NCBI GenBank assembly: GCA_020628095.1 | Contig: JAHDFP010000024.1 | Span: 1-49,528, forward strand | DNA: 49,528 nucleotides | Direction: 5' to 3' | Source of the DNA: Saprospiraceae bacterium | Lineage (GTDB): Bacteria; Bacteroidota; Bacteroidia; Chitinophagales; Saprospiraceae | Shown: in pieces, positions 1-21,478 of the stretch | Layout: each line of letters opens with the position of its first letter | Position numbering within the stretch: the first letter of the stretch is position 1 | Notes under the pieces: generated by a model | Told to the model about the DNA's origin: nothing | Seen by the model: only the letters and a program-made list of their open reading frames with translations | Databases searched by the model: none | Made by a program: the position numbers and the translations under genes

Positions 1-3000
1 AGTATGGATCTGCACTGTCGTCCATCGTGATTCGGCTCTGACACGTGTGCGTATTGTCACAGGCATCTGTTGCTGTAAACGTGATCAATAAGCCCGCACC
101 GCCATTGCATGCTAGACTTGGCAAGCCATTTGGATAATTATTTGTAATCTCCACATCACTGCAGCCAAACGCATCTGTTGCCGTCGCACTATTCAACCAA
201 TTCAATATCAACTGGTCATTATTCTCATCGCCACATATTAATGCAATATCCGATGGACATACGACCGTCGGATCACTCGTGTCTTCTAATATGTAATCAC
301 TAAATGCCGTTGTCTCATTTCCACAGGCATCGGTCGCTGTGAATAAATAAGTCTCTGTATTCGTGCCGCCGCAATCACTGATCGTATTCCATAGGACTGC
401 ACTTACCGTTACCTCACCGCAGGTGTCATCGCCTGTTGCACTGTCTATCCATTGCTGTACTGTTGTCTCTATATCGCCACACTCTTCTGTCAAACTCGCT
501 GGCTCATCTAAATTAGGTGGGGTCGTGTCTTCTGTGATGACTTGTGCTGTTGTTGTGCTTTCGTTATCACACTGATCTGTTACCGTAAATATGTACGTCG
601 TACTTTCTGTATCGCCACAACCACTTAATACCGGTAAGGCTTCATAACTCCACTCTAATTCTGTACTGCACGCATCACTCGCCACAGCACCGCCATTACT
701 CTCTATCCAATCCGCTATCAATGCCGCATTGTTTGCATCTGAACATTCTAATATTAAATCCGCTGCCGCTAACTCGATCGTTGGATCTGTCGTGTCTTCG
801 ATTGTAATCTTTCTTTCACATTCAGTGACATTATCACACGCATCAGACGCCGTAAACGTCACTGTGTACTCGCCACTCAAGCCGCATGCCGCCTCAAACT
901 CATCATCGTAATCATTAACCAAAGTCACTGTCGAACAGCCATCTGATGCCATCGCAAAATCCAACCAATTCTCAATAATCACTTCATTTAACTCGTCCGC
1001 ACATTCTAAGGTAATATCCGCCGGACATGTTAACTCTGGTGCTGTTGTATCTTCTATTGTAAATACCGCCGATGTCGTGCTCGTATTTCCGCAATCATCC
1101 GTCGCCGTAAAGGTCACCTCTACTTCGCCTGTCTCTCCACAACCATCGGAGAAGCCTGCAAAGTCATTGCTCCATTCGACCTCATTACATATATCTGATG
1201 CGCTTGCGCCTCCGTTATTTTCTAACCATACCAATAAGGCATCTGTCCCATTTGATCCGCCGCTGCACTCGATCGTCTCATCTGATGCTTCTGTGTCTAT
1301 CACTGGAACTGTCGTATCTATAATTCTAAATGAGGATAGACATCTATGCGTATTACCAAAATTGTCTTCGGCTGTAAAACTGTAGATTAATGTGTACGTA
1401 TTTCCACAGCCGCTGATCGTATTATTTAGTTCGCTGGTGATGCTGATGTCTGTATCGCAATTATCGGTCGCCGTCACTTCTGCCAACCAATCTGATAATT
1501 CATCGTTATTCGCCATGCCATCGCATTCTACTACTTCACCTTCTGGACAGGTCACCACTGGATTTTCGCAATCTTCTACAATCACATCAAAACAACATTG
1601 ACTACTATTACCTGCATCATCCTCGATCGTATAACATACTCTACTTTCTCCTAAGTTAAACACCACACCATCATCTGCAATATCATTCTGTCCTGTTGCC
1701 GCTGAGGTCGCTACCGTCGCTCCTGTTACCGTATAAGTTACCGTGTAGCCTTCATCTGGACAATTCTCATTGTAAATCGATGAAACTCTGTCATCCGATT
1801 CCCATACACATGTGCCGGTATCCGTACACACGACCACATCATTACTCGGACACTCGATCGTCGGTATGTCGCTATCTTCTACTGTTATATCAAACTCACA
1901 CGTCGTCGTATTGCCACAATCATCCGTCGCTGTAAATAAAATCGTCGTCGTCCCGATTGGGAATGGCTGACCACTTGCTATGCCACTTGTCATCACTACA
2001 GTCACATCTTCGTCACAGTTGTCTAAGGCGATCGGTGTGCTGTATACTACATTGGTCTCGCATAGATCGACGTCTACATTGACCGTCATGTCTTGAGGAC
2101 AATTGCTGAAGTATGGATCTGCACTGTCGTCCATCGTGATTCGGCTCTGACACGTGTGCGTATTTTCACAGGCATCTGTTGCGGTAAACGTGATCAATAA
2201 GCCCGCACCGCCATTGCATGCCAGACTCGGTAAACCATTCGGATAATTATTTGTAATCTCTACATCACTGCAGCCAAATGCATCTGTTGCTGTCGCACTA
2301 TTCAACCAATTCAATATCAACTGGTCATTGTTCTCATCTCCACACACTAAAGCAATATCTGCCGGACATACGACCGTCGGATCACTCGTGTCTTCTAATA
2401 TATAATCACTAAATGCCGTTGTCTCATTTCCACAGGCATCGGTCGCCGTAAACAAGTACGTCTCTGTATTCGTGCCGCCGCAATCACTGATCGTATTCCA
2501 TAGTACTGCACTTACTGTTACTTCACCGCAGGTGTCATCGCCTGTTGCACTGTCTATCCATTGCTGTACGGTTGTCTCTATATCGCCACACTCTTCTGTC
2601 AAACTCGCTGGCTCATCTAAATTAGGTGGGGTCGTGTCTTCTGTGATGACTTGTGCTGTTGTTGTGCTTTCGTTATCACACTGATCTGTTACCGTAAATA
2701 TGTACGTCGTACTTTCTGTATCGCCACAACCACTTAATACCGGTAAGGCTTCATAACTCCACTCTAATTCTGTACTGCACGCATCACTCGCCACAGCACC
2801 GCCATTACTCTCTATCCAATCCGCTATCAATGCCGCATTGTTTGCATCTGAACATTCTAATATTAAATCCGCTGCCGCTAACTCGATCGTTGGATCTGTC
2901 GTGTCTTCGATTGTTATCGTTCTTTCACATTCAGTGACATTATCACATGCATCTGTCGCCGTAAACGTCACCGTGTACTCGCCACTTAATCCGCATGCCG

Positions 3001-5166
3001 CCTCAAACTCATCATCGTAATCATTGACCAAACTCACTGTCGAACAGCCGTCTGATGCCATCGCAAAATCCAACCAATTCTCAATAATCACTTCATTTAA
3101 CTCATCCGCACATTCTAAGGTAATATCTGCCGGACAGGTTAGCTCTGGTGCTGTCGTATCTTCGATTGTAAATACCGCCGATGTCGTGCTCGTATTACCG
3201 CAATCATCCGTCGCCGTAAAGATCACCTCTATTTCACCTGTCTCTCCACAACCATCTGAGAAGCCTGCAAAGTCATTGCTCCATTCGACTTCATTACATA
3301 TATCTGATGCGCTTGCGCCTCCGTTATTTTCTAACCATACCAATAAGGCATCTGTCCCATTTGATCCGCCGCTGCACTCGATCGTCTCATCTGATGCTTC
3401 TGTATCTATCACTGGATCTGTCGTATCTATAATTCTAAAAGAGGATAGACATCTATGCGTATTGCCAAAGTTGTCTTCGGCTGTAAAACTGTAAAGTAAC
3501 GTATACGTATTGCCACAGCCACTGATCGTATTATTTAGTTCACTTGTGATGCTGATGTCTGTGTCGCAATTATCGGTCGCTGTCACTTCTGCCAACCAAT
3601 CTGATAAATCATCATTATTCGCCATACCATCGCATTCTACTACTTCGCCCTCTGGACAGGTCACCACTGGATTTTCGCAATCCTCTACAATCACATCAAA
3701 ACAACATTGACTACTATTGCCTGCATCATCCTCGATCGTATAACACACTCTACTCTCACCCAAGTTAAACACTACTCCATCATCGGCAATATCATTCTGT
3801 CCTGTCGCCGCTGAGGTCGCTACCGTCGCACCTGTTACCGCATAAGTTACCGTGTAACCTTCATCTGGACAATTCTCATTATAAATCGATGATACTCTGT
3901 CATCCGATTCCCATACACATGTGCCGGTATCCGTACACACGACCACATCATTACTCGGACACTCGATCGTCGGTATGTCGCTATCTTCTACTGTTATATC
4001 AAACTCACACGTCGTCGTATTGCCACAATCATCCGTCGCTGTAAATAAAATCGTCGTCGTCCCGATTGGGAATGGCTGACCACTTGCTATGCCACTTGTC
4101 ATCACTACAGTCACATCTTCGTCACAGTTGTCTAAGGCGATCGGTGTGCTGTATACTACATTGGTCTCGCATAGATCGACGTCTACATTGACCGTCATGT
4201 CTTGAGGACAATTGCTGAAGTATGGATCTGCACTGTCGTCCATCGTGATTCGGCTCTGACACGTGTGCGTATTGTCACAGGCATCTGTTGCTGTAAACGT
4301 GATCAATAAGCCTGCGCCACCATTGCATGCTAGACTCGGTAAACCATTCGGATAATTATTACTGATCTCGACTTCACTGCAGCCAAATGCATCTGTCGCT
4401 GTCGCACTATTCAGCCAATTCAATATCAACTGGTCATTGTTCTCATCTCCACATATTAATGCTATATCCGATGGACACACAACCGTCGGATCACTCGTGT
4501 CTTCTAATATATAATCACTAAATGCCGTTGTCTCATTTCCACAGGCATCGGTCGCCGTAAACAAGTACGTCTCTGTATTCGTGCCGCCGCAATCACTGAT
4601 CGTATTCCATAGTACTGCACTTACTGTTACTTCACCGCAGGTGTCATCGCCTGTTGCACTGTCTATCCATTGCTGTACGGTTGTCTCTATATCGCCACAC
4701 TCTTCTGTCAAACTCGCTGGCTCATCTAAATTAGGTGGGGTCGTGTCTTCTGTGATGACTTGTGCTGTTGTTGTGCTTTCGTTATCACACTGATCTGTTA
4801 CCGTAAATATGTACGTCGTACTTTCTGTATCGCCACAACCACTTAATACCGGTAAGGCTTCATAACTCCACTCTAATTCTGTACTGCACGCATCACTCGC
4901 CACAGCACCGCCATTACTCTCTATCCAATCCGCTATCAATGCCGCATTGTTTGCATCTGAACATTCTAATATTAAATCCGCTGCCGCTAACTCGATCGTT
5001 GGATCTGTCGTGTCTTCGATTGTTATCGTTCTTTCACAATCTGTTACATTATCACAAGCATCGGTCGCTGTAAACGCCACCGTGTACTCGCCACTTAAGC
5101 CGCATGCCGCCTCAAACTCATCATCGTAATCATTCACCAAACTCACTGTCGAACAGCCGTCTGATG
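1..5166. repeat. Near-identical 2109-bp tandem repeat inside the adhesin gene (about 2.45 copies visible)
   Basis: The sequence starting at 1 recurs at 2110 and 4219, a period of exactly 2109 bp (703 codons), so the reading frame is kept. The copies differ by scattered, mostly third-position changes. Near-identity stops abruptly at about 5166, where copy three leaves the pattern. The left end is cut by the window, so the true copy number is unknown. Each unit encodes eight HYR-like domains. Confidence 0.95.
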
Positions 5167-8100
5167 CAGAAGCCGTTAATAGCCAGCTTCCTATAATTTC
5201 TTCATTCAATGGGTCAGAGCATTCTAGTGTAATATTGGCAGGGCATGTTAGCTCAGGTGCTGTTGTATCCTCGATAATGAATCTCTTAGCGATTCGATTA
5301 CTTCTATTGCCACAATCATCTGTTACCCAGAATAAAACTTGATAATACCCTAAATCATCATCACAAGGATCAATTGTTACAAATTGCGTATCCTCAAAAT
5401 TATTATCCCATGTAAAACCATTACAAAATTCGTCTACATCGGAATCAGGAATATTTCCATTACTACCTAACCATGCCAGGAGCTGATCTTGGTTACCTAC
5501 TCCATCGCACTCTACAGTTACATCAGGAGCTACTGTGGTGATGACCGGCGCCGTATTATCTTGTACTTCGAAAGACCTTATACACGTCGTTGTATTACCA
5601 GCGTCATCTGTTGCGGTAAATAAATATTCTACCGTGCTTGTATTACCACAACCACTGATTGTATTCCAAACATCAAAGGTCATATCCACCAATGCATCAC
5701 AGTTATCAGTGGCTACTGCGGAATTAAGCCAAGTATTTAATTGTATGGCATTCGTCGCAGCACATTCTACAATTAAATCTGCAGAACATGAAAGATTAGG
5801 TGCTTCGCAATCCGTAATAATTACATCAAAACAACAACTGCTGCTATTACCAGCTTCGTCAGTAATGGTGTAGCATACCCTACTGCGACCTATTGCAAAA
5901 ATTATATCATCTGCATCTACGTCATGATATCCGACCAATGGACTACTTACATTTGTCGCACCCGTAATCGTATAACTGAGATCAAAACCCTCATCTGGAC
6001 AATTTTCTGAAAATACTGGACTCACGGAATCTGAAGCTCTCCATCCGCATGTGCCAGGATCGACACACTTCTCTACATCGACTGATGGACAACTGATGGA
6101 TGGTATATCAGAATCTAACACCGTAATATCAAATTGGCAAGTCGCTGTATTACCACAATCATCAGTAGCTGTAAACAAGATGGTCGTAGTCCCCAAATCA
6201 AAAATATCTCCACTCGCAATACCAGATGTCATAACCACATCAACATCTTCATCACAATTATCAAATGCTAACGGTGTACTGTACACTACATTACTTTCAC
6301 ACAAGTCTACATCTACATTTACCGTAATATCAGTTGGACAATTTTCAAACCTCGGTGCATCCTCATCGATCATGGTGATTGTCGAAGCGCAAGAACTGGT
6401 ATTGCCACAATCATCTGTTGCCGTGAAGGTTACACTTGTAGTCATTGTTGTCCCACAAGAAAGATCCGGCAATTCGCTAGGAATGTTGTTTGTTATTATG
6501 ACATCACTACAAACGTCTGTTGAGGTTCCCGTCTGAAGCCAATTTAAAATCATCAGGTCGTTACTCTCATCACCACAGATTAACTCTAAGGCTTCTGGAC
6601 AGGTAATAACAGGATCTACCGAATCTTCAATTGTAAAGGAAGCTAGACCTGTGGTTACATTTCCACATTCGTCAGTAGCCGTGAATAGGTGTACTTCCGT
6701 ATCAGAACCTCCACAACCCGAAATCGTATTGTATAATTCAGAGTCTAAAGTCACATCTCCACAATCATCAGAACCACTTACAGATTCTAACCAATCGCTC
6801 AATTGCGTAAGATTACCAGCACCGTCGCATTCTACCGTCAGGTCATTAGGCACATCTATTTCTGGTACTGTTGTATCCTCGGTAATGACAGATGACGTTG
6901 CTGTATTGGTATTACCACATTCATCAGTGATAGTCCAAGTATATATCACAGTGCCCGTATCTCCACAGCCCGCAATTGGTTCTCCTGATGTGACTGACCA
7001 AGTAACATCACCACAATTATCAGAGGCTACACCGCCCCCATTATTTTTAATCCAATTATTTATCATTGAACTTGCATCATCTGACGCACATTCTATAGTT
7101 ATATCTTGAGGGTCAACCTCGAAGACCGGAATCGTTCGGTCTAATATACTAATCGTCGAACTACATCTCGCTAGATTTCTACAATCATCGACAGTAGTAA
7201 AAGTAATAGTGTATACCCCTGCGTCTCCACAAGTTGCAGCAAAAGTATTCGGATATGTATTCGCAATTGTCAGTTCGGAACAAGCATCCGTTGCAGAAGC
7301 CGTCTCTAGCCAATTCGTTATAACAGCATCGTTTGTGTCATTTCCACATTCCAAAGTAATATCTGCAGGACAGCTGATTATAGGATTTGTATTATCAGGT
7401 GCCGAAAACTGTGCTCGGGAAGAAGATGAATTACCGCATTCATCAGTAACAATAAAATCTACTATGAATGTCGGGAATCCAGAACAGTTTGGTGTTTCGC
7501 TAACTACGTTATGAGTCCATGATGTTCCACTACATACATCTGTTGCTGTTGCCCCACCATTATTGTTTAGCCAATTGATATAGTCTTCTGGCGCGTCCTC
7601 ACAATTTGACACCATATTAGAAGCAGGTGTGACAACCGGGTTGGTTGTATCTTCTATTGTGAATGACGCTCTACAATAATCACTATTACCAGCATCATCC
7701 TCTGCAATGAACTGATAAACAAAAGTCTCACCACCTCCACACATAGAAATTGTATTATCTAAATCTTGAGATGTCATCAAAGTATTATCACAGTTATCAG
7801 ATGATGAAGAAGTCCCCAACCAAGAGTTCAACTGAGTGGTATTACCAGATCCGTCACATTCGACAGTCATATCCGCTGGGCAAGTAACTTGTGGACTTTC
7901 ACAATCATTCACTATGACATTAAAACAACAAGAAGACGTATTGCCAGAGGCATCTGAAATCGTATAACACACAGTACTAACACCCAAATTAAAAGTCGTG
8001 CCACTTGCATCATTCGTTCCTGTTCCACTCGTCTGACCTGTAATGGCATAGTTGATCGTAAAACCTGGACAGTTTTCGACCCCCAGAGAAGGTCCAATAT

Positions 8101-11100
8101 CAGCGGACTCCCATGTGCATACTCCTGAGTCAGTACAGGCAATAATATCACTGCTTGGGCAAAGGATTATTGGATCATCTGAGTCTATCACCGTAATATC
8201 AAATTGACAAGTTTGAGTATTACCACAGTCATCTGTTGCTGTATAAGTTATCGTACTTGTACCTACTGGGAATGTACTACCCGAAGTAGGACCACCTGTT
8301 TGTATGGCAGTCACGTCACAGTTATCCATTGGTATAGGATCAGAAAATATTGGATTACTTCCACATAAATCCACATCTACATTGATCGTCATATCCTCTG
8401 GGCAATTGACGAAATCAGGAGATGAATTATCATCTAAAGTGATGCGCGAATTGCAAGTCTCCGTATTACCACAATCATCTGTTGCAGTAAATGTCACGAC
8501 TTTTACACCACCACAATTAGCTGGAAGGACTCCATCAAAATTATTAGTGAATGTAACTTCTCCACAATCGTCCATACCCGTCGCGGATGTCAGCCATTCA
8601 GCAATAAATAACGGGTTGTCGTCAACACCACAAAATAGATTTAAAGTAGACGGACAGGTTATAGACGGATCGGTAGAGTCCACTATAGTATAAGATGCTA
8701 AAGCTGATGCCTGGTTACCGCATGCATCCGTTGCTGTAAATTGATACACTTCTGTATTTGTATCACCGCATCCAGATATTGTATTGAATAGTATGGCTTC
8801 AAAAGTAAATCCATCTGTACCACAATTGTCCGTGGCACTCGCCCCATCTTGCCAATCACTAAGACTCGTCGCTGCAGCATCTGCACATTCTACTGTAATA
8901 TCAGTCGGAGGAATAACTTGCGGTACTGTAGTATCCTCAAATACATATAGTGCCGTTGCTGAGGTTGAATTACCACAATCATCAGTTACAGTAAAAGTAT
9001 AAATGATACTCTCAGAATCTCCACATCCTTCTTCCGCATCTCCTTCTGTAACATTCCAAGTCAAATTATCATCGCACTGATCGCTAGCCATTGCACCACC
9101 GTTATTTTTTATCCAGGCAGAAGGATCCGCGTCCGCATCACCGCATTCGACAATGAGGTCTTGTGGCTTCATAAGAAATTCTGGCGGAAGTGAATCTTCT
9201 ATAGTAATCCTTGCATTACATCGTACAAAATTATCACAATCATCAGTCGCAGTAAACGTCACCAAGTTATTACCCGTCGTCCCACAATCAGCAGTAAATC
9301 GTCCAGGATAATTATTTGTGATTACCGGATCAGTGCAATTGTCCGTAGCTACAGCGGATTGTAACCATAATTCTATCACGGCATCATTAAGGACATCGTC
9401 GCATTCTAATGTAATATCAGTAGGACAAGTAATCATTGGGTTCTCGGTATCATCCACCATAAAATCAGCGGATGTTGTCGAAGTATTGCCACATTCGTCA
9501 GTTGCTGTAAAAGTTACAGAAAGAGAGGTCACCCCTGAGCACCCCGTCATCGCGGCCCCATTGAAGTCATTAGTCCATGTTACCGCGCCACAATTATCTG
9601 TAGCTACCGCACCTCCATTATTATTAAGCCAATCTAGTAAGTCTGCATTGGCCTCTGCACAATTACTGTCTCCATCAGATGCAGCAGTAGTAATCGCAGG
9701 AGGAGTATTATCAATGCTTGTATAATTAGCAAAACACTGAGAATCATTGCCAAAATTATCCGTGGCTATAAATTGATAAACTTGTGTATTAGTAGAACCA
9801 CAATTACTTATGGTATTGAATAATATCTTTTGAATGTCAATATTGGTATCACAATTATCCGTCGCGGTGGCATTAAAAGATGCAGGTGCTGAAGACCCAC
9901 AGACTGCATTTGTGACATTTGCTGGACAAGAAATTACTGGGTCTTCGCAGTCAGACACAATTACATCAAAACAACAACTGGATGTATTACCTGCAGCATC
10001 GGTCATATAATAACAGACTTGGCTTGTGCCTAGATTAAATGTACGATTGGCCGCCGTACCCGTTCTTCTTGTCAATGTCGTCGCACCTGTAATCTCCACT
10101 TGTGTCACTACATTAGGACAATTATCCATACCCATTGGAAGCACAGAATTATCAGACCTCCAAGTACAGATTCCATCACCAGTACAAACTTCCACATTAG
10201 ACGGACAACTAATCTCTGGCGTATCAGAATCTACTACTGTAATATTAAAATCACATCTCCCTAATCGATTACAATTATCTCTTACATCAAATCGTATCAG
10301 CGTCGTTCCAAGGGGAAAAGTAGAACCTGACGCGGGTCCCAAAGTCTGGACAGGCACAATGCCTGGCGAACATTGATCATAAGCGACAGGAGTAGAAAAG
10401 ACCACATTGGCATCACAATTATCCACATCGACATTAACCGTCATATCAGAAGGACAATTAAGAAAAACTGGATTAATCCTATCCAGTAATCTCAATCTTC
10501 TATTAAAACTGCGTGAATTACCACATTCGTCCTCGACAGTTATGGCTATCCAGTTAGACGCATTACATGTTTCTAAAAGACTGCCATCCCAGTCATTGGT
10601 AACGTATGTCGTACCCCCGCAAGCATCAGTAATAGCATCTTCTATCGCGTCCAACCATTCTTGTATCTGTGTATTATTATCAGGATCACCACACTCTACA
10701 TCAAGATGTCCAGGCAACCCTACCCAAGTCGGCGCAACAATATCCTGTTCTGTAAAACTGAAATAGTCTATTGTGGTATTTCCACATTCGTCTGTTGCTG
10801 TAAATTCGTAGACTTCAGTATAGGTCTCACCACATCCTGATATACTATTATATAATCTATACTCGACGTCAATATCTGCGGCTACAGTACAGAGATCAGA
10901 TACACTTCCATAATTAGTCAGATAACTGGCTAGATTTGCATCATTAGTCGTTGCACAATTAAGAGTAATATCTGCGCGAAGATTAAGGACTGGAGGGGTA
11001 TTATCTACAACAGTTGCTGTCGCTGTTGCGGTAGATGTATTACCACAATCATCTCTTATTGTAAAAGTATATAATCTTTCGTAAGTGTATCCGCATAATT

Positions 11101-14100
11101 CTGTAGTAGATGTCAGAGCACTACTCCAGGTCACAGTCGCATCACAATCATCTGTTGCCATACCGTTACCATTAGCTGCTAACCAGGCGTTGATTGCTGC
11201 TGTGGCTCCATTTGCATTGACACATTCAAATTCTGCATCCTGTGGCTTCATCATAAACTCAGGAGGCGTTGTGTCAAGATGTGTAATCCGCGAGGTACAA
11301 GTAGAGCGATTATCGCACTCATCTTCTGCAGTAAATGTAATGGTTCTAACACCACCACATTCGTTAGGATTGAGTGTGGAAAAATTATTAGTCACAGTAT
11401 GATCCGTACAAGCATCTATTGCTGTTGCGTTATCTAACCAATTGGTTATTATGGCATTATTATTAGGGTCACCGCACTCTACCGTTATGTCATTAGGACA
11501 TGTGATCACAGGAGGCGTGGTATCATCTATGGTAATAGTTGCTGTACAGGTAGAAGTATTTCCACATTCATCTGTAGCTGTAAATGTCACGACTTGACTT
11601 CCTTTACCTCCCATCATAAGCATTGCAGGACGTGTCTCTGATTTATTGACTATATCCAATATGTAATAAAAGTCTTTTGGGCCTTGCACACTTTGTTTAC
11701 CTGACGATTTCATCTTTTCTATACCTGAAGAACTACCATCAGATGTAAAAGAATAACCATTGGGGTCAAAATTATCTTCTATGCTTATAACGTCTCCTTC
11801 ATTATCCGTGGCAGTTACAGAGCTGAGCCAATCATTTATTGCGGCACTATTAAAAGAGTCATCACACTCCAAATTTAAGTCATCAGGACAGTTAATATCC
11901 GGTGGCATATTTTCTATTAATACGTTAATGGTACACATATCCGTATTACCCAAAACGTCTTCGACTATCACAGTCACAGTCCGCACCATGTTAGCGTCGC
12001 TGCAATCAAATGTACCACAGCCCATACAAGTCTCCGTATAGCTATCTGGACATGGATATGTGACAGTGTAAGGCAGATCTGACAACTCTATAGATGCCAT
12101 CGTACCATCCATAGATACTGTTGCATTGGTAGGACAGTTCAGCATCGGTGTTTCGTCAGATTCTATTTCGTTATCTATGATCTGCTCGCAATTATCTTTA
12201 TCGGTAATAGTCACGGTATACATACCAACGCCTAATCCAGAAAGATCCTGAGATGTTGCGCCCGTTGACCACAGATATGTATATGGTGCTCCATTGGCAT
12301 CAACTGTCACATCGATCATACCGTCTGTACTCGATGGACAAGACGCATGTGTGATTGTGACGCTATTAGTATTACGGCAACATGTTGGCTGAGCGTTACC
12401 ACAGCTTATTCTTACGGGCTCCGTTATAGACCCAAAAGAATTATATACTGGTGCCGCTAAAGAACCACTTACCCAACTAATACCATTGATACCGGAAGAA
12501 AAATTAGCATAAAAATCAAAGGTCGTATTACAACCTACGTTACCTATTAATGCGCCATCTGTGCAGCAAGGTGCCCATCCCCAGTTAGCCGTAACTGTGG
12601 GGAAGATACCTGTAATCTCTCCTGGATCATCTGAAAAATCCAGAGTGGATGTTGTAGGTAAGCAGAAAAAATCAATAGTACCTCTACCTCCTGTCGGATC
12701 ACGCGCATCATCCAAAATAATGAACAGAGAAATCTCACCTGTCAACGTATTTTCATATAGAAAAAGGACAACCTCTTCTGCAAGCTCTAATCCAGTATTA
12801 GCAGATGCACCATTAGGAGTACCATAGGCGTAAAATGCCACATCATCTTGCGCATTCTGTAGGGTATTAATAGAAAATGTCTGTGACCCCTGCGTGACTG
12901 TACAATTACAGTCCATCATCTTTTGCTGGAATACATATTTATCCTCAGCCTTAGGATTATCATCAAACATTTCCATAGTCCTCACCGCAACATCCTGAGT
13001 ACTTTTTGATACTTCAGAAATTATTTCTGGTGATCCACTTTTTGATGGAACAACGGCAATGAACTCGACATTAGAGTCATCAACAAATTTCACTCTATCT
13101 GAAATCAAAAATCCATCATCGACAAATTTGTCCTCTATGATACGGCGACCAGATTCGTTCCTTATAATATGAGTCGTTGTGTTAGTCTTTTGATTTCTTT
13201 CAAAATCCAAAATAACAGACTCTCCATAAGTCTGATTACCCTCTAGGTAAAGTGGGAAAGGTTTCCCCCCTTCAACTAATCTAATTATCTGCGAATTGAC
13301 ATTTCCACTCTCTGTATATCCGACTGTTACTTTATAATTTGATTCTTCGCCCTCTATAATTAGATGATTCTTTGAGCTACTATTTTTTATTTTGGATATA
13401 ACCCTATATCCTCGTTCAGCATCTGGAATATATAATTCACCATTTCTAGCCACCGATGTGAATACTTCTTCTGGTGTAAATTTGGTTTCGACACATCCCC
13501 CATATTGCAAAGAAATTTCAGAGTTTTTCAATGCAGGCAATTCAGCGACCTTTAACCATATTGCAGCATGTTTATCGTTATATCCTTCTATCCAATAAGG
13601 CAACACTCTTCCCCCAGCATCTAAAAAAAGTAAATCTGAAAAATCAGGAGCCATGCCCTCTTGATACATCAGATTTAACTGTATCTGATAGTCGAAAAGA
13701 TTATCAGATTGCTTATTATATAAGGTGATTTTCTTGGAATATTGACATTTGGTCATCTCTGATAGCAATTGACCAGAAGATAGTAAGCTATGGCTTAGAT
13801 GCCCCGTGCTTATTCTAGGGTTTCTGGATAAATCAAAATAATCCAACTGATTCTCGGTATCAATAAAAACAAAACCATTAGGATCAAAATTGTTATCCAA
13901 AGACTGCACGCCGCACACATCTGTGGCGGTAAAACTATCGAGCCACTCATTAATAATAGAGCTATTATTAGGGTCACCACATTCCAATGTAATATTGGAT
14001 GGACAACTTGTCGTAGGCCCGTTGCTATCCTCTACGGTCACCACAAAGGAGCACGTAGATGTCGTGTTATTATTATCGGTCGCCGAATATACGACCGTAG

Positions 14101-14824
14101 ACATACCTTTAGGAAAAAACTCCGAGACATTACCCATTCCATCCGTAACAGTCAATGCTCCAGTGATATCGTACTCAAGAACAATATCCGAAGTAGGCGT
14201 ACAATCGTCAAATAATATCTGCGGTGCAAGTCCATTAACTTGGCGTCCACATGGCTCTCCTCCGGTAGCTTCGTACGTAATATTAGCTGGACAAGTTATG
14301 GTAGGAGGCGCACAATCAACAAAGGTATCCTCGAATGTAAAAGGAAATAGAGTAGTACAGGCTCTATCAAAAATATACGCTTGTGACCCAGTGACACTAA
14401 CAAGAGTAATTCTAAGATTAACGAAACAATCTGGTGGCGTAAAATCCCAGAATGCCCAATCATTATATACATTGGCACGTCCATCACATGCTGAAATAAT
14501 ATTAATTCCTGACTTACATCCCGATAAGGAGCCTATCGGAGTATCCCAAACAACGCCCGCTGGTAAAGCAGAAAAAGTGTTCGTAACACCTGTAGCTGTA
14601 TTTTGTACGCTAAATGTTACTACTGCATTAGCCGTTTGAGCAGGGCTCAGATTACCATGCCAGTGCTCGGCGAATAATCTTATACGTCCTTCTGGCGTAA
14701 TACAATATGCCCACTGAGTACTGTGCGCACATATCTCTTGACTTAAAATAAGTGTGAAAAAAAATAGACAAGTAGTCCTAAAATACCTAGAACTCTTAAT
14801 AATTAACCCTAATCTATCGAACAT
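1..14824 (-). CDS. Giant HYR/SprB-repeat surface adhesin, C-terminus beyond window
   Basis: A single minus-strand frame is open from an ATG at 14822-14824 to the left edge (at least 4941 codons). I checked the frame at over a dozen points, including all five copies of the CCFDV motif near 9970, 7925, 5830, 3700 and 1590. Residues 1-35 are a signal peptide with a long hydrophobic core (CLFFFTLILS). Residues ~36-170 are a Cys/Trp-rich domain I do not recognise. A HYR domain starts at ~171. A DUF2341-like domain (PDFSDLLFL, LPYWIEG) lies at ~356-445 and a SprB repeat (PYTYLWSTGATSQDLSGL) at ~811-880. The rest is ~88-residue HYR-like domains, each ending in motifs such as FTATDDCGNTSTC and separated by D-T-T-x-P. 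An in-frame stop lies just upstream of the ATG. Proteins of this kind in Bacteroidota are secreted by T9SS and act in adhesion or gliding; the sorting domain would lie outside this window. The exact ligand is unknown. Confidence 0.93.
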   Translation of the reverse strand, partial: MFDRLGLIIKSSRYFRTTCLFFFTLILSQEICAHSTQWAYCITPEGRIRLFAEHWHGNLSPAQTANAVVTFSVQNTATGVTNTFSALPAGVVWDTPIGSLSGCKSGINIISACDGRANVYNDWAFWDFTPPDCFVNLRITLVSVTGSQAYIFDRACTTLFPFTFEDTFVDCAPPTITCPANITYEATGGEPCGRQVNGLAPQILFDDCTPTSDIVLEYDITGALTVTDGMGNVSEFFPKGMSTVVYSATDNNNTTSTCSFVVTVEDSNGPTTSCPSNITLECGDPNNSSIINEWLDSFTATDVCGVQSLDNNFDPNGFVFIDTENQLDYFDLSRNPRISTGHLSHSLLSSGQLLSEMTKCQYSKKITLYNKQSDNLFDYQIQLNLMYQEGMAPDFSDLLFLDAGGRVLPYWIEGYNDKHAAIWLKVAELPALKNSEISLQYGGCVETKFTPEEVFTSVARNGELYIPDAERGYRVISKIKNSSSKNHLIIEGEESNYKVTVGYTESGNVNSQIIRLVEGGKPFPLYLEGNQTYGESVILDFERNQKTNTTTHIIRNESGRRIIEDKFVDDGFLISDRVKFVDDSNVEFIAVVPSKSGSPEIISEVSKSTQDVAVRTMEMFDDNPKAEDKYVFQQKMMDCNCTVTQGSQTFSINTLQNAQDDVAFYAYGTPNGASANTGLELAEEVVLFLYENTLTGEISLFIILDDARDPTGGRGTIDFFCLPTTSTLDFSDDPGEITGIFPTVTANWGWAPCCTDGALIGNVGCNTTFDFYANFSSGINGISWVSGSLAAPVYNSFGSITEPVRISCGNAQPTCCRNTNSVTITHASCPSSTDGMIDVTVDANGAPYTYLWSTGATSQDLSGLGVGMYTVTITDKDNCEQIIDNEIESDETPMLNCPTNATVSMDGTMASIELSDLPYTVTYPCPDSYTETCMGCGTFDCSDANMVRTVTVIVEDVLGNTDMCTINVLIENMPPDINCPDDLNLECDDSFNSAAINDWLSSVTATDNEGDVISIEDNFDPNGYSFTSDGSSSGIEKMKSSGKQSVQGPKDFYYILDIVNKSETRPAMLMMGGKGSQVVTFTATDECGNTSTCTATITIDDTTPPVITCPNDITVECGDPNNNAIITNWLDNATAIDACTDHTVTNNFSTLNPNECGGVRTITFTAEDECDNRSTCTSRITHLDTTPPEFMMKPQDAEFECVNANGATAAINAWLAANGNGMATDDCDATVTWSSALTSTTELCGYTYERLYTFTIRDDCGNTSTATATATVVDNTPPVLNLRADITLNCATTNDANLASYLTNYGSVSDLCTVAADIDVEYRLYNSISGCGETYTEVYEFTATDECGNTTIDYFSFTEQDIVAPTWVGLPGHLDVECGDPDNNTQIQEWLDAIEDAITDACGGTTYVTNDWDGSLLETCNASNWIAITVEDECGNSRSFNRRLRLLDRINPVFLNCPSDMTVNVDVDNCDANVVFSTPVAYDQCSPGIVPVQTLGPASGSTFPLGTTLIRFDVRDNCNRLGRCDFNITVVDSDTPEISCPSNVEVCTGDGICTWRSDNSVLPMGMDNCPNVVTQVEITGATTLTRRTGTAANRTFNLGTSQVCYYMTDAAGNTSSCCFDVIVSDCEDPVISCPANVTNAVCGSSAPASFNATATDNCDTNIDIQKILFNTISNCGSTNTQVYQFIATDNFGNDSQCFANYTSIDNTPPAITTAASDGDSNCAEANADLLDWLNNNGGAVATDNCGAVTWTNDFNGAAMTGCSGVTSLSVTFTATDECGNTSTTSADFMVDDTENPMITCPTDITLECDDVLNDAVIELWLQSAVATDNCTDPVITNNYPGRFTADCGTTGNNLVTFTATDDCDNFVRCNARITIEDSLPPEFLMKPQDLIVECGDADADPSAWIKNNGGAMASDQCDDNLTWNVTEGDAEEGCGDSESIIYTFTVTDDCGNSTSATALYVFEDTTVPQVIPPTDITVECADAAATSLSDWQDGASATDNCGTDGFTFEAILFNTISGCGDTNTEVYQFTATDACGNQASALASYTIVDSTDPSITCPSTLNLFCGVDDNPLFIAEWLTSATGMDDCGEVTFTNNFDGVLPANCGGVKVVTFTATDDCGNTETCNSRITLDDNSSPDFVNCPEDMTINVDVDLCGSNPIFSDPIPMDNCDVTAIQTGGPTSGSTFPVGTSTITYTATDDCGNTQTCQFDITVIDSDDPIILCPSSDIIACTDSGVCTWESADIGPSLGVENCPGFTINYAITGQTSGTGTNDASGTTFNLGVSTVCYTISDASGNTSSCCFNVIVNDCESPQVTCPADMTVECDGSGNTTQLNSWLGTSSSSDNCDNTLMTSQDLDNTISMCGGGETFVYQFIAEDDAGNSDYCRASFTIEDTTNPVVTPASNMVSNCEDAPEDYINWLNNNGGATATDVCSGTSWTHNVVSETPNCSGFPTFIVDFIVTDECGNSSSSRAQFSAPDNTNPIISCPADITLECGNDTNDAVITNWLETASATDACSELTIANTYPNTFAATCGDAGVYTITFTTVDDCRNLARCSSTISILDRTIPVFEVDPQDITIECASDDASSMINNWIKNNGGGVASDNCGDVTWSVTSGEPIAGCGDTGTVIYTWTITDECGNTNTATSSVITEDTTVPEIDVPNDLTVECDGAGNLTQLSDWLESVSGSDDCGDVTLDSELYNTISGCGGSDTEVHLFTATDECGNVTTGLASFTIEDSVDPVITCPEALELICGDESNDLMILNWLQTGTSTDVCSDVIITNNIPSELPDLSCGTTMTTSVTFTATDDCGNTSSCASTITMIDEDAPRFENCPTDITVNVDVDLCESNVVYSTPLAFDNCDEDVDVVMTSGIASGDIFDLGTTTILFTATDDCGNTATCQFDITVLDSDIPSISCPSVDVEKCVDPGTCGWRASDSVSPVFSENCPDEGFDLSYTITGATNVSSPLVGYHDVDADDIIFAIGRSRVCYTITDEAGNSSSCCFDVIITDCEAPNLSCSADLIVECAATNAIQLNTWLNSAVATDNCDALVDMTFDVWNTISGCGNTSTVEYLFTATDDAGNTTTCIRSFEVQDNTAPVITTVAPDVTVECDGVGNQDQLLAWLGSNGNIPDSDVDEFCNGFTWDNNFEDTQFVTIDPCDDDLGYYQVLFWVTDDCGNRSNRIAKRFIIEDTTAPELTCPANITLECSDPLNEEIIGSWLLTASASDGCSTVSLVNDYDDEFEAACGLSGEYTVAFTATDACDNVTDCERTITIEDTTDPTIELAAADLILECSDANNAALIADWIESNGGAVASDACSTELEWSYEALPVLSGCGDTESTTYIFTVTDQCDNESTTTAQVITEDTTPPNLDEPASLTEECGDIETTVQQWIDSATGDDTCGEVTVSAVLWNTISDCGGTNTETYLFTATDACGNETTAFSDYILEDTSDPTVVCPSDIALICGDENNDQLILNWLNSATATDAFGCSEVEISNNYPNGLPSLACNGGAGLLITFTATDACDNTHTCQSRITMDDSADPYFSNCPQDMTVNVDVDLCETNVVYSTPIALDNCDEDVTVVMTSGIASGQPFPIGTTTILFTATDDCGNTTTCEFDITVEDSDIPTIECPSNDVVVCTDTGTCVWESDDRVSSIYNENCPDEGYTVTYAVTGATVATSAATGQNDIADDGVVFNLGESRVCYTIEDDAGNSSQCCFDVIVEDCENPVVTCPEGEVVECDGMANNDDLSDWLAEVTATDNCDTDISITSELNNTISGCGNTYTLLYSFTAEDNFGNTHRCLSSFRIIDTTDPVIDTEASDETIECSGGSNGTDALLVWLENNGGASASDICNEVEWSNDFAGFSDGCGETGEIEVIFTATDDCGNTSTTSAVFTIEDTTAPELTCPADITLECADELNEVIIENWLDFAMASDGCSTVSLVNDYDDEFEAACGLSGEYTVTFTATDACDNVTECERTITIEDTTDPTIELAAADLILECSDANNAALIADWIESNGGAVASDACSTELEWSYEALPVLSGCGDTESTTYIFTVTDQCDNESTTTAQVITEDTTPPNLDEPASLTEECGDIETTVQQWIDSATGDDTCGEVTVSAVLWNTISDCGGTNTETYLFTATDACGNETTAFSDYILEDTSDPTVVCPADIALVCGDENNDQLILNWLNSATATDAFGCSDVEITNNYPNGLPSLACNGGAGLLITFTATDACENTHTCQSRITMDDSADPYFSNCPQDMTVNVDVDLCETNVVYSTPIALDNCDEDVTVVMTSGIASGQPFPIGTTTILFTATDDCGNTTTCEFDITVEDSDIPTIECPSNDVVVCTDTGTCVWESDDRVSSIYNENCPDEGYTVTYTVTGATVATSAATGQNDIADDGVVFNLGESRVCYTIEDDAGNSSQCCFDVIVEDCENPVVTCPEGEVVECDGMANNDELSDWLAEVTATDNCDTDISITSELNNTISGCGNTYTLIYSFTAEDNFGNTHRCLSSFRIIDTTVPVIDTEASDETIECSGGSNGTDALLVWLENNGGASASDICNEVEWSNDFAGFSDGCGETGEVEVTFTATDDCGNTSTTSAVFTIEDTTAPELTCPADITLECADELNEVIIENWLDFAMASDGCSTVTLVNDYDDEFEAACGLSGEYTVTFTASDACDNVTECERKITIEDTTDPTIELAAADLILECSDANNAALIADWIESNGGAVASDACSTELEWSYEALPVLSGCGDTESTTYIFTVTDQCDNESTTTAQVITEDTTPPNLDEPASLTEECGDIETTVQQWIDSATGDDTCGEVTVSAVLWNTISDCGGTNTETYLFTATDACGNETTAFSDYILEDTSDPTVVCPSDIALICGDENNDQLILNWLNSATATDAFGCSDVEITNNYPNGLPSLACNGGAGLLITFTATDACDNTHTCQSRITMDDSADPY
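5167..11580. repeat. Diverged older copies of the eight-domain super-repeat
   Basis: The order of the eight HYR subtypes seen in the 2109-bp unit continues in diverged form. The subtype-1 marker (NVDVDLC), the subtype-2 marker (CCFDV) and the NTISGCG marker keep their order. The CCFDV markers lie near 9972, 7927, 5832, 3703 and 1594, giving steps of about 2045, 2095, 2129 and 2109 bp. Similarity between neighbouring units is clear in protein but weak in DNA, and the first unit (10.5-11.6 kb) is partial. Confidence 0.85.
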
Positions 14825-15136
14825 AAAGTTTGACTTGAAATTGTACAATTCGTATTCAGGTCCTACTTTATGTTCTCATATATAAAATAATCTATATGTA
14901 ATCTACTATACCATAGCAGCTTACAATAGCTAATCTATACATTACAGTTGGTTAGTGTGTTTAAGTTTTGGTCCTCTAAGAGTTAACAAACAACAAGATA
15001 CATATTATATAATTATTTAATATAATATTCTATCGTATTTCTATGTGCGCAGTTAGTTTATAGTCGAAGATGACAGAACAAAAGATCTTTAAAGAGAGAT
15101 TTATCTCATAAAATAACCGAGCAAATTCACCTTACT
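14825..15136. other. 312-bp AT-rich intergenic region upstream of the adhesin gene
   Basis: No gene is visible. The region follows the SCO1-like stop codon and precedes the adhesin start on the same strand, so it should carry the adhesin promoter and possibly the end of the upstream operon. I looked for a TTTG / TAnnTTTG Bacteroidota promoter pair and found none convincing. A weak inverted repeat (GAGAT-TT-ATCTC) lies near 15094-15105. Confidence 0.4.
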
Positions 15137-15769: not shown

Positions 15770-16263
15770 ATTTTATCAGTTGGATTTAGTGATATACAAC
15801 TACTGGAACCGAGCAATCCAAACGTTCTTCCATCTTTTATAATATAATGCGCTATAACAACACCATTAGCATCTATGATTTTATTCTTGACTACACTACC
15901 CTTGTGATACTCTCTATGTATTTGCAACTCGCCATTAGGGTAATACTCCTTATATTCCCCCTGTCTCTTGCCATCCACACAGGAATAAGAAAAGGACAAA
16001 TTACCATTGACGTGCCAGCCCTGTTGCAGTCCAGCTTGTACTCCATTCTTATATCTGTAGTCCAGTTTATTTTTTTCACTAGAAGATTGATTAAGGTGTC
16101 CCGAAAATTTCTCACCTTGATAATAATATACACTATCCTTTAACTCCAATTTCTTATCATCCATACGCACATAGACATCAGGAACATTTATAGTTACCAA
16201 ACTTTCATCAGATTCGATCTGACAAGATGACAACAAGGAAAACAATATTAACAACCTATACAT
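15766..16263 (-). CDS. MORN-type repeat lipoprotein
   Basis: I start this gene at the ATG at 16261-16263 because the next residues (MYRLLILFSLLSSC) form a lipoprotein signal with Cys14 as the lipid anchor. The start lies inside the last codons of uvrC, an 8-base overlap. The body has tandem motifs such as NGVQAGLQQGWHVNGNLSFS and YKEYYPNGELQIHREYHKG. These match the toxin_43/MORN_2 type of repeat common in Bacteroidota lipoproteins, a beta-rich repeat with Gly and aromatic residues. No catalytic residues are visible and the function is unknown. Its 3' end overlaps the SCO1-like gene by four bases, so a link to copper or oxidase assembly is possible from context only. Confidence 0.8.
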   Translation of the reverse strand: MYRLLILFSLLSSCQIESDESLVTINVPDVYVRMDDKKLELKDSVYYYQGEKFSGHLNQSSSEKNKLDYRYKNGVQAGLQQGWHVNGNLSFSYSCVDGKRQGEYKEYYPNGELQIHREYHKGSVVKNKIIDANGVVIAHYIIKDGRTFGLLGSSSCISLNPTDKI

Positions 16264-18070
16264 TTCCTTCTGATTGATTACTGAAATAATCATAAACTGT
16301 ATTAGCTAGCTTCTCGCCAATTAGTTGAGAAAGATCGGCTTTATTCAGTCCCCTTATCTTTTTGACCGAACCGAAAGTCTTTAGTAATTTCTCAGCAGTC
16401 TTTTCACCTATTCCCGCAATATTAGTCAGCTCCGTGCCTAGAGCATTTTTAGAGCGTTGATCTCGATGGAATGTAATAGCGAAACGATGTGCCTCATTTC
16501 TCAAATGTTGAATCAGCTTTAGAGATTCTGATTTTTTATTAATATAAATGGGAATGGGGTCATCAGGGAAATATATTTCCTCCAGTCGCTTTGCAATTCC
16601 AATCATCACAATTTCCTTTTCCAAACCCAAATCTTTCAATATTTGGTATGAGGCACTTAACTGACCTTTACCACCATCTATGATCACAAGTTGAGGCAAT
16701 GGTTTGTTTTCGTTCTTGAGGCGTGTATACCTCCGTAAGACAACTTCCTGCATAGAAGCGAAATCATTAGGCCCTACAACTGTTTTGATATTAAATTTTC
16801 GATAATCCTTTTTAGATGGTTTCGCATTTTTGAATACGACACAAGAAGATACAGGATCAGATCCTTGTATATTAGAGTTATCAAAACACTCTATATGATA
16901 AGGCAAGACATCCATCTGGAGGTCTTCTTTCATTGTATTAAGTATCCTTTCTGCTGATGTCTGCTTTTTCTTGTAGGTTGCTTCATCTTTTCTTTTCTGT
17001 AGGATATAATATGTGAGGTTCTTCTCGGCTAGATCTAGAAGATGACGTTTGTCCCCACGCTGGGGAACAGTGACTTGGACTTTGTCTATAAGATTAAGCG
17101 GCTTGGCAAGTATAACTTCGGGAGATATACTATTAAATTTTTCTCTCAGATAATTAATAGAAAAGACTAAGAGGTCATCATCATTATCATTCAGATTTTT
17201 TTTCAGTTCTACGTTATCGGAATTGATTAATGCACCATTGACAATTTTAAGGTAAGATACATACGCCATATCTTCCTCAGATCTTATAGCGAATACATCA
17301 CTATCTTTGATTGTCGTATTGACTACCGTAGACTTAGATTGGTAGTTATCCAGAGCGTCCAACTTTTCTTTTAACTCCTGAGCTTTTTCAAACTCTAATT
17401 TCTCAACAGCAATTTCAAGCTGCTCTTTTATGTAATTTTTTACTGGAGCAATCTGACCTTTAAGTATGTTTTTTACTTGACTTATTTTTTGGTCATAAGC
17501 CTCCTTACTTTCATATCCTACACAAGGACCCAGACAATTTTTGATATGATATTCTAGACACACTTTAAATTTTCCTGCTTCAATGCTTTTTTCCGATAAC
17601 GGTAGCGTACACGTTCTAAGTTTAAACAACTTCTTTATTATATCCAAAAGTATTCTAGCTCGGTACTTAGATGTATACGGACCAAAGTACTGTGACCCAT
17701 CTTTCCATACTTTTCTTGTGAAAAACACTCTGGGGAAAGGCTCTTTCTTGACGACGATATACGTATAGGTCTTGCCATCTTTGAGCATGACATTATATCG
17801 CGGTTGCAGTTTTTTGATTAATGTATTCTCCAGTAGAAGAGCGTCTTGTTCTGTTTCGACGACTGTATATTCGAGCTTAACTGCATTCCTTACTAGTGCT
17901 TTGGTCTTGTATTGCTGATGCTTTTTCTCTCCAAAGTAATTGGCAGTTCTCTTCCTGAGATCTTTGGCTTTTCCTACATAAATGACCACATCCTTTTCGT
18001 CTATAAATCTATAGACACCTGGCTCGTGAGGTATCTGTGGGGCGAGTTCTTTATATTGATTAGTCGTCAA
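16256..18070 (-). CDS. uvrC: UvrABC system protein C (excinuclease subunit)
   Basis: The 604-residue protein has the full UvrC layout. The N-terminal GIY-YIG nuclease domain is at ~1-95, with GVY at 18-20, YVGKAKDLRKR at 31-41 and Glu81 in LLLENTLIKKLQPRYN. A UVR helical hairpin that binds UvrB lies near 205-245 (EFEKAQELKEKLD). The RNase H-like second nuclease domain is at ~385-540 (ECFDNSNIQG, VIIDGGKGQLSA), followed by a C-terminal helix-hairpin-helix (IAGIGEKTAEKLLKTFGS). UvrC makes both incisions around a UvrB-bound lesion in nucleotide excision repair. It lies 30 bases after mgsA and runs into the MORN lipoprotein gene, consistent with one operon. The length is normal and no defect is seen. 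Confidence 0.98.
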   Translation of the reverse strand: MTTNQYKELAPQIPHEPGVYRFIDEKDVVIYVGKAKDLRKRTANYFGEKKHQQYKTKALVRNAVKLEYTVVETEQDALLLENTLIKKLQPRYNVMLKDGKTYTYIVVKKEPFPRVFFTRKVWKDGSQYFGPYTSKYRARILLDIIKKLFKLRTCTLPLSEKSIEAGKFKVCLEYHIKNCLGPCVGYESKEAYDQKISQVKNILKGQIAPVKNYIKEQLEIAVEKLEFEKAQELKEKLDALDNYQSKSTVVNTTIKDSDVFAIRSEEDMAYVSYLKIVNGALINSDNVELKKNLNDNDDDLLVFSINYLREKFNSISPEVILAKPLNLIDKVQVTVPQRGDKRHLLDLAEKNLTYYILQKRKDEATYKKKQTSAERILNTMKEDLQMDVLPYHIECFDNSNIQGSDPVSSCVVFKNAKPSKKDYRKFNIKTVVGPNDFASMQEVVLRRYTRLKNENKPLPQLVIIDGGKGQLSASYQILKDLGLEKEIVMIGIAKRLEEIYFPDDPIPIYINKKSESLKLIQHLRNEAHRFAITFHRDQRSKNALGTELTNIAGIGEKTAEKLLKTFGSVKKIRGLNKADLSQLIGEKLANTVYDYFSNQSEGNV

Positions 18071-19762: not shown

Positions 19763-21478
19763 TTACTTAACGGTAAACTTACGCGTTATGTTTCCGATTT
19801 GAGTTTTTAAGTTGAAAAAATAAATTCCAGTATTCCAACCTTCTACAGAAAAGCTAATAGGCGTCCGACCAGAATTCAATTGTTGCTTAGGGCTACTATA
19901 AATAACTTGACCAGCTACATTAACCACTTGCACCTCGGTCGTAAGACCTTTCTCTAAATCCAAGGTAAATTCTGCCCTATCCTGAACTGGATTTGGAAAT
20001 GGTCCCGATAAGCTGATTTTTTCATTAATCAATGAAACCTCATGCGCAGTGGAACTTATCAGGTCTCCTTTCCGAAGGAAATGCGCATAGACACTGAGGC
20101 TACCGTCACCAGTTCTCCCATCCGACCAAAACGGAATTACATAATCATCAATGGTAATTAAGGAATTATATTCTCCAATGCTAAAGTTTCCATTAGCCTG
20201 ACCAGCAAATCTAAAATCTGTGGCCTCACTGGTGACAGGACCTTTGACAAAGGTTTCTCCACCGTCGTTAGATTCAGCGATAAAGTAATGAGTCAACTGG
20301 TTATTTATATCGTCACTTCTATCATACCAAGCAATAAAAAGATCTCCGAAATCGTCAACCTCAATTGCGGAATAGTATTGATGCAAATCTGGATTATCAT
20401 TATTATTGATGACCTGAGGAGATGACCAGCTAGTACCTCCGTCATCAGATTTGACCATATATATATCAAGACCTAAAGTACTCGATGAGTCCACTCCACT
20501 TGCCGTGTACGAAATATAGATGTTACCCTCGGTACTTGTATCAGATTTGTCAATAGCTAAATGGGGACAAGGATACAAGCGAGTGGCATCTAATCCTTCA
20601 ACAATAAATTGATCTTCGTTCTCATCTGGAAAATAAAAATTTGTTACCAACTGTGGGGTCGAATAAGAGGCTCCGCCATCTGTTGATTTGATAATATAGA
20701 GTTCTAGCTCCTGAGGATTAGTGAGATTACCCGCAGTATATGATATATAAACATGCCCATTATTGTCGGCATCTATACTTGTAAACTGACAGAACCCATG
20801 TTCTGCAGAAACAACCTGCGAGAGCGTATCAAAATTAACCTGACCTCTTTCTTTTTTTGTTGCAATAATTTCATAATCTGCGCCTAAAAGGTTTGGTGTA
20901 ATTGTCGCATAAGTACAGTATATATTACCGTAATAAGGTGAGCTTTCGTTCAGATCAGACACCAGCCATTGCTTGTCCGTTAGCCTTTCCAGTTGAAAGA
21001 AAGAAGAAGCAGTATCAATAGCTATAGGCTCGTCCAAGTCACTCCATGTCAAACCCCCATCCTCGGATTTTGCAGCATATATTCCCCACGAAATATCGCT
21101 TTCCCCACTTGCGTCTGCCTCTATAAACAGCCAAGTAAAATAAGCGTTACCCTCTGGATCAAAAACTATAACCGGATCACCGCCACCCAGAGAAGACCTT
21201 CCAGGTGTTATTGCGGTGAAATCACTTTTGGTCCATGTATCCCCAAAATCTTTAGTCATATAAATAGAAAAATCCAAAAATTCCGAACTCGTAATATCCA
21301 GATCCATCACCCCAACTATAATGTTATTTTTATCAGTAGGGTTATATGCGGCATGTAATTCGCTTTCTGTCTTTTGATCTTCGCCAACTAATATTTCACC
21401 ATTCGCTTTGGGTCTGGTCATAGGGTTAAACTCTAAGTCATGTTCTATGCTCCTTGTCTCAAAATACATTTCCAGCAT
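19763..21478 (-). CDS. BNR/Asp-box beta-propeller protein with T9SS sorting domain; signal peptide out of frame
   Basis: The 571-residue frame has five Asp-box motifs (TKDFGDTW, SEDGGLTW, STDGGASY, SDDGGTSW, SNDGGETF), the mark of a six-bladed sialidase-type propeller. After it comes a C-terminal type A sorting domain of about 80 residues starting at GPFPNPVQDRAEF and ending GIYFFNLKTQIGNITRKFTVK-like strands. Such proteins are exported by Sec, then secreted or cell-surface anchored by T9SS. No sialidase Arg triad or FRIP motif was identified, so an enzyme activity should not be assumed. The frame lacks a signal peptide. One is encoded just upstream in another frame, and the two join if one base is removed from an A7 tract (minus strand) at 21484-21490. 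Without that correction the product would not be exported. Confidence 0.85.
   Translation of the reverse strand: MLEMYFETRSIEHDLEFNPMTRPKANGEILVGEDQKTESELHAAYNPTDKNNIIVGVMDLDITSSEFLDFSIYMTKDFGDTWTKSDFTAITPGRSSLGGGDPVIVFDPEGNAYFTWLFIEADASGESDISWGIYAAKSEDGGLTWSDLDEPIAIDTASSFFQLERLTDKQWLVSDLNESSPYYGNIYCTYATITPNLLGADYEIIATKKERGQVNFDTLSQVVSAEHGFCQFTSIDADNNGHVYISYTAGNLTNPQELELYIIKSTDGGASYSTPQLVTNFYFPDENEDQFIVEGLDATRLYPCPHLAIDKSDTSTEGNIYISYTASGVDSSSTLGLDIYMVKSDDGGTSWSSPQVINNNDNPDLHQYYSAIEVDDFGDLFIAWYDRSDDINNQLTHYFIAESNDGGETFVKGPVTSEATDFRFAGQANGNFSIGEYNSLITIDDYVIPFWSDGRTGDGSLSVYAHFLRKGDLISSTAHEVSLINEKISLSGPFPNPVQDRAEFTLDLEKGLTTEVQVVNVAGQVIYSSPKQQLNSGRTPISFSVEGWNTGIYFFNLKTQIGNITRKFTVK

Follow-up and report, generated by a model that had tools for sequence, protein, structure and literature searches.

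The window covers contig C6 in full, 49,528 nucleotides of a 4.2 Mb Saprospiraceae genome assembled in 33 contigs (98.7% complete), and position 1 is the end of that contig, not the C-terminus of a protein. The open reading frame list and translation show that the first 14.8 kb form a single minus-strand frame of 4949 codons, open past the left contig end, in which the HYR domain (PF02494) scores 310 bits against a Pfam cut-off of 21.7. Cutting the translation at its DxxxP linkers yields eight different HYR-like beads per unit, which we name a to h. The repeat unit is an octet of HYR-like domains of about 703 aa, and the roughly 700-aa period recurs across Saprospiraceae genera: of 16 octet genes or gene halves examined in eleven genomes, 14 have their commonest spacing between recurring four-residue words at 690-710 aa, and only G097:C4 and the half of the present gene that we place on contig C31 depart from this. 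The array is not picked up by Tandem Repeats Finder, whose longest period is 500, and Rfam at gathering thresholds has no match within the window. The octet boundaries given here come from a domain parser that overlaps or misplaces some beads.

16256..18070, minus strand: uvrC, the upstream synteny marker (TIGR00194, 521 bits), with orthologues upstream of the G004:C5 and G009:C1 genes
2..14848, minus strand: giant HYR-domain gene, N-terminal part (TTG start, 4949 codons; ATG at codon 9)
11525..14848, minus strand: DUF2341 and dispersed HYR-like domains at the N-terminus; G004:C61 is an orthologue (47%, residues 21-420)
10484..11524, minus strand: half octet N1, the oldest, domains e-h
8432..10483, minus strand: octet N2, older; its domains best match the equal position in G008 and G009
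6368..8431, minus strand: octet N3, older
4238..6367, minus strand: octet N4, with a-d diverged and e-h in the near-identical tract
2129..4237, minus strand: octet N5, domains a-h, 703 aa (domain parse; predicted structure)
20..2128, minus strand: octet N6, domains a-h, 703 aa (domain parse)

Near-identical units and the edge of the tract

The last two octets before the contig end, N5 and N6, are 98% identical over their 703 aa each, in line with the repeat identity of Periscope Proteins. At the DNA level this part of the array divides as follows, with phases counted from position 1 of a 2109-bp unit.

1..2109, minus strand: near-identical unit U1, 96% identical to U2
2110..4218, minus strand: near-identical unit U2, with 86 of 2109 bases different from U1
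4219..5166, minus strand: near-identical part of a third unit, matching U1 and U2 over phases 1 to about 949
5167..5280, minus strand: transition zone at the N-terminal tract edge, half-similar, in domain e beside the d|e linker (15-bp window identities)
462..805, minus strand: 344-bp run identical in three copies (also 2571-2914 and 4680-5023; difference lists, U1-U2 permutation test)
1785..2109, minus strand: 325-bp run identical in U1 and U2 (copy at 3894-4218; difference lists, permutation test)

U1 and U2 align without an indel, and 75 of their differences fall at third codon positions; over one octet of 703 codons there are 73.5 synonymous and 12.5 nonsynonymous changes (dS 0.182, dN 0.0076), a dN/dS of about 0.04. 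The earlier note, made from the window alone, had described the units at 1, 2110 and 4219 as almost identical with mostly silent changes; this is borne out for the first two, and for the third as far as about 5166, beyond which it is only half-similar to about 5280. Measured per 100 bp, identity at lag 2109 is 0.90-1.00 from 1 to about 3000, 0.79 at 3001 and 0.61 at 3101, and then drops to background.

The older octets extend to about 11.5 kb and are diverged, as the note had also said, with silent sites saturated from residue 1108 (pS 0.66-0.85 to the next octet). Pairwise synonymous distances exclude uniform divergence across the units, and silent divergence falls in two classes, 0-0.50 inside the tract and 0.66 or more outside, so that the silent-site age pattern is a step and not a gradient. 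Diversity rising toward the N-terminus can be recognised in amino-acid identity, where neighbouring octets climb weakly toward the array (N1-N2 0.34-0.49, N2-N3 0.41-0.54, N3-N4 0.31-0.60, and N4-N5, domains a-d, 0.44-0.79), but not in the silent sites.

The probable second gene half and its counterparts in relatives

When U1 is searched against its own genome, matches are found in C6 and C31 only. C31 closes with 164 bases (86847-87010) that are 95% identical to unit phase 1559-1722. The frame to which they belong, 2868 aa long and incomplete at 5′, keeps the register of C6, which supports the expectation that the array continues past the left edge of the window. The smallest gap between the two contigs is phase 1723-2109, 387 bp (130 codons). 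Most of it overlaps the 1785-2109 stretch over which U1 and U2 do not differ, and this would account for the assembly break at this point. C31 contributes about 2820 residues C-terminal of its near-identical piece, made up of diverged domains (HYR at 101 bits against the cut-off of 21.7) followed by a T9SS type A sorting domain (TIGR04183) at frame residues 2791-2866, a narrow pass at 24.4 bits against a cut-off of 23. Export of the protein to the cell surface through the type IX secretion system is very probable; no recognised adhesive domain scores above cut-off in either the C6 or the C31 half.

Flanking genes and relatives bear on whether these are two parts of one gene. uvrC lies upstream on C6 and gltX adjoins the gene end on C31, and in G004, a member of the same genus, contig C5 carries in order uvrC, two small open reading frames, one complete octet gene of 7731 aa, and gltX; the same contig also holds orthologues of ten genes between 15140 and 26066 of the window. 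In G009 an N-half of the present type lies beside uvrC, and the end of that contig overlaps the start of a C-half contig exactly, over 138 bp. C6 and C31 thus very probably hold one gene, with its C-terminal half on C31, because of the in-frame phase match, the absence of a third octet contig, the uvrC and gltX flanks, and the G009 overlap. With the smallest gap the joined protein would have about 7,940 aa or more (4949 + 130 + 2868 codons), and extra octets may sit in the gap.

The two halves have different closest relatives. The N-terminal part is orthologous to G004:C61 (51% over 5000 columns) and not to the syntenic N-terminus of G004:C5, the first 800 residues of which find no match in the present genome beyond a single bead-level match in C31; the C-half is orthologous to G004:C5, at 64% and 52% over two stretches. 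Because G009 combines the halves as the present gene does, it is more likely that they were swapped in the G004 line. A module at the C-terminus of G004:C61 is so common among these genomes that it is of no use for telling loci apart.

Octet matches at E <= 1e-60 occur in 9 genomes, the present one included, out of 120 sampled evenly across the family. Among the seven octet genes that we examined with both ends, three contain interior stretches of at least 0.9 identity at octet lag: G004:C5, where the tract spans residues 1565-4568, G121:C18, and G097:C15, which has two tracts. The other four have no tract at 0.9 identity, although G094:C17 has middle windows at 0.75-0.84 and G004:C61 has two windows at 0.78-0.84; G076:C52 and G097:C4 have no window at 0.75 or more. 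The near-identical core recurs, but is not universal. In G004:C5 it has a form of its own: the four full copies of beads c-d-e-f do not differ at all (0 of 1044 bases in each of the six pairwise comparisons), and beads g and h alternate between two versions that share 40% and 35% of their amino acids, so that the period is 16 beads or 4215 bp, with an exact run of 4796 bp. The identity of these copies may be either very recent or partly an assembly product.

The reading of C6 and C31 as the ends of two different octet genes, which would leave placement of the tract in the middle as a property of relatives only, draws on the presence of two octet genes in G004, each nearest to one of the present halves (C61 to the N-half, C5 to the C-half), and on a C6-C31 join that no read links. 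We nevertheless regard it as unlikely, given that octet matches are confined to these two contigs in a nearly complete genome, that G004:C5 has an N-terminus without a proper match here, that the flanks are as in G004, and that G009 pairs equal halves. The earlier note had read the array as possibly growing near the C-terminal end, with units that become steadily older toward the N-terminus, and in the window alone the identical units are indeed the most C-terminal and the weak climb in amino-acid identity runs toward them. But the residues that C31 adds after the tract, the position of the G004 tract well inside its protein, the interior tracts of the complete genes G121:C18 and G097:C15, and the stepped silent divergence all tell against this reading, and make it very unlikely.

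A young middle between older flanks, and probable exchange between octets

We compared each bead by its best local alignment score in its own gene and in genes of other species (C6 against G008:C26, G009:C1 and G004:C61; C31 against G004:C5 and G009:C150; and G004:C5 against five gene pieces), leaving out C6 rows before residue 1108 or after 4900 and C31 rows before 49 or after 934. On the N-terminal flank in C6, 22 of 24 beads find their best partner in another species, while none of the 20 tract beads does so; the Fisher P of 2.6e-10 for this count is indicative only, as the tract copies are not independent. All of the outermost 14 beads of this flank (residues 1108-2221) have a collinear best match in another species. 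Closer to the tract, the top-scoring partner frequently belongs to a different octet, and several of the 22 are decided by a small margin. All 11 beads of the C31 C-terminal flank are best in other species. For G004:C5 the corresponding counts are 2/2 on the N-flank (the two rows overlapping), 0/34 in the tract and 12/15 on the C-flank. The counter-cases that match best within their own gene are thus two of the 24 in C6 and three of the 15 G004 C-flank domains.

A corresponding pattern appears in a maximum-likelihood tree built from 25 e-f pairs that were picked by hand in six gene pieces of four genomes, with G004:C61 and other genera left out. The flank pairs C6_1108 and C6_1799 each group with G008 and G009 (support 100/99 and 100/98), C31_221 groups with G004_5080 (90/85), and the three tract copies of the present gene form one clade (99/97) that is sister (96/92) to five identical G004 copies. 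C6_2484 and G9b_1033, on the other side, stand apart from their positional partners, and the tree has no species clade of G008 or G009 octets beyond one weakly supported pair. The bead scores and the tree show mid-gene octets that are near-identical and species-specific, and outermost octets on both sides that are old and match other species by position. Judged by these comparisons, concerted evolution is confined to the middle of the gene in this genome and in G004, and is not found in all relatives.

Within the tract, the differences are not scattered evenly. When third-position differences between U1 and U2 are permuted, the longest identical run (344 bp) has P = 1.5e-4 and the second (325 bp) P = 5e-5. 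Site patterns among the three copies are clustered, with 21 runs against 33.6 when shuffled (P = 2.5e-4, for 52 of 56 variable sites, the four with three different bases being dropped). The patchiness of the identical runs points to gene conversion or to unequal exchange between units, in agreement with the earlier proposal that the repeats are homogenised by exchange. The edges of the tract lie at unequal octet phases, in domain e on the N-terminal side and at b|c′ on the C-terminal side, and a single clean duplication is therefore disfavoured; such phases would be expected if conversion took place at a later time or if a diverged octet took part in an exchange. Both edges of the present tract, the start of the G004 tract and the ends of those in G121 and G097 lie within a few residues of a DxxxP motif, but the G004 end is 16 residues off and the G121 and G097 starts are 21-39 off, so we draw from this no rule that edges fall at linkers.

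Two explanations would dispense with exchange altogether. If the near-identical copies were an assembly product of one unit, a contig break inside the repeat would be no surprise, and the 4796-bp identity at lag 4215 in G004 could come from an assembler walking a loop twice; yet the 86 differences between U1 and U2, with their third-position excess and low dN/dS, are those of natural divergence under protein-level selection, and we consider this origin extremely unlikely. Selection on the sequence of these particular octets, acting without recombination, has in its favour that purifying selection on the protein is strong, but it does not account for silent sites that are identical over 344 and 325 bp, and the matching octets in other species are strongly different; its probability seems to us close to negligible.

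We therefore favour, with a probability of about 0.8, a giant surface protein whose octet stalk is renewed by in-register exchange in the middle of the gene, with older octets flanking it. In-register recombination between octets, by unequal crossing-over and gene conversion, would duplicate and even out whole middle octets, and those shifted outside would lose identity, cease to exchange and become frozen flanks. Selection maintains both the protein sequence (at the dN/dS seen between U1 and U2) and the eight-bead register. The product would be a long rod between fixed N- and C-terminal parts, the length of which could change by whole octets with the frame kept. The mechanism put forward in the earlier note is in this respect likely to be right in kind, but not in its place, as the tract lies in the middle, nor in its smooth gradient, as the silent sites show a step.

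Predicted structure and comparison with known systems

The AlphaFold2 prediction took in ten octets, half of them from the window and half from L026. The octet is predicted to be a chain of beta-rich beads (mean pLDDT 80.8), with a pTM of 0.37, and its overall shape is therefore not fixed. Searched with Foldseek, this model comes closest to cadherin ectodomains and other chains of beads, with TM-scores no higher than about 0.2. An octet profile gives a weak match (E 3.8e-5) to the serine-rich adhesin for platelets 4m03, which stands at E 0.29 in another PDB search; a further search with the octet has nothing at 0.01, 4m03 included, and we build no conclusion on it.

The closest functional class is that of the Periscope Proteins. 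As described, they share with this protein a surface stalk in which folded domains are repeated in tandem, the repeats being long and of high identity, and their repeat number is presumed to vary by intragenic recombination (PMC8201768, PMC9704523). The present protein differs from those accounts in that its unit is eight different beads and not one domain, and in that near-identity is limited to a core with diverged flanks. Length variation between strains is here a prediction, the differences that we see being between species only, with one genome per species. Thousands of residues of Ig-like beads on a bacterial surface are also reported for the giant Ig-like adhesin of Mobiluncus mulieris, with 7651 residues (PMC10619420), and for MpAFP, an ice-binding adhesin in which about 120 repeats are identical (PMC4083281). 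As they are described there, both have single-domain repeats and other modes of export or anchoring, and neither account presents an octet register with old flanks.

The main text of two surveys of fibrillar adhesins (PMC8286594, PMC9210967) does not contain HYR, none of the open-licence papers searched contains both 'Saprospiraceae' and 'HYR domain', and titles and abstract openings among them yield no such octets under related terms.

Among repeats outside bacteria, the triplicate region of nebulin is alike in having near-identical copies of a block of eight, exons there and beads here, within a giant repeat gene, as far as its description goes (PMC9109913). Nebulin is a eukaryotic and unrelated protein. 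Aureispira belongs to the Saprospiraceae. Its Grappling hook protein A (GhpA, PDB 9flp) is likewise a beta-rich domain chain in a large surface protein, but a relationship with it is not supported by sequence: Foldseek gives a TM-score of 0.13 and 12% identity to 9flp; no GhpA chain is among the PDB sequence matches at E <= 1 for the octet profile and both gene halves.

In the higher-order repeats of alpha-satellite, diverged layers are described on either side of a homogeneous core and are set apart from it by an identity gap, with gene conversion and unequal crossover as presumed mechanisms (PMC9549924); that DNA is non-coding and eukaryotic, whereas the octets lie in a bacterial reading frame under purifying selection. 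It is tempting, at somewhat less than even odds, to see in this gene a coding counterpart of such satellites, in which the register is kept across genera, the core is reborn in mid-gene in separate lineages, with older octets displaced outward to either side, and the core serves as the junction at which paralogue halves are exchanged. Concerted evolution is seen here inside one bacterial gene with its boundary visible, a few domains separating species-specific octets from those that match by position, and this boundary makes it possible to measure the identity that in-gene repeat exchange needs, and the growth of a giant stalk. We also note that contigs of such genomes can end inside these genes, and that a giant surface protein is then truncated and its apparent end misinterpreted, as in this window.

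N-terminal parts of the giant genes

N-terminal parts appear to have been swapped between paralogous giant genes built of octets, the units of eight HYR-like domains. The N-terminus of the syntenic gene in the related genome G004 (contig C5) differs from that of the window's gene, and the window-type N-terminus is found on a different octet gene of G004 (contig C61). Within G004, C5:166240-168640 was compared with C61:81351-82556 (loci L019, L055).

Octet tracts and contig ends

One octet gene of another relative, G097, contains two separate near-identical octet tracts, lying at about 9.4-13.0 kb and about 15.0-20.0 kb within the gene:
G097:C15:133343-161023, octet gene, 9227 aa (loci L043-L045)

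Several further genomes besides the window's have an octet array cut by a contig end; because these contigs end inside the array, the giant genes of those genomes are likely to be cut or under-counted. The edges concerned are:
G062:C175, start (L051)
G101:C54, end (L053)
G009:C1 and C150, ends (L024, L025)

Other genes of the type IX secretion system (T9SS) type

Two further genes bear the T9SS sorting tail (PF18962), namely the BNR-like protein (40.6 bits), whose gene lies two genes upstream of uvrC, and the second gene of the DUF1800/DUF1501 pair:
window 19763-21478 (-), BNR-like-repeat protein, 571 aa
window 34779-38036 (+), adjoining DUF1800 and DUF1501 genes

A neighbouring gene in the relative G008 carries a compact array with lags at multiples of 159 bp (53 aa) and identities of 0.85-0.98:
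G008:C26:4321-5400, T9SS-type gene (L021)
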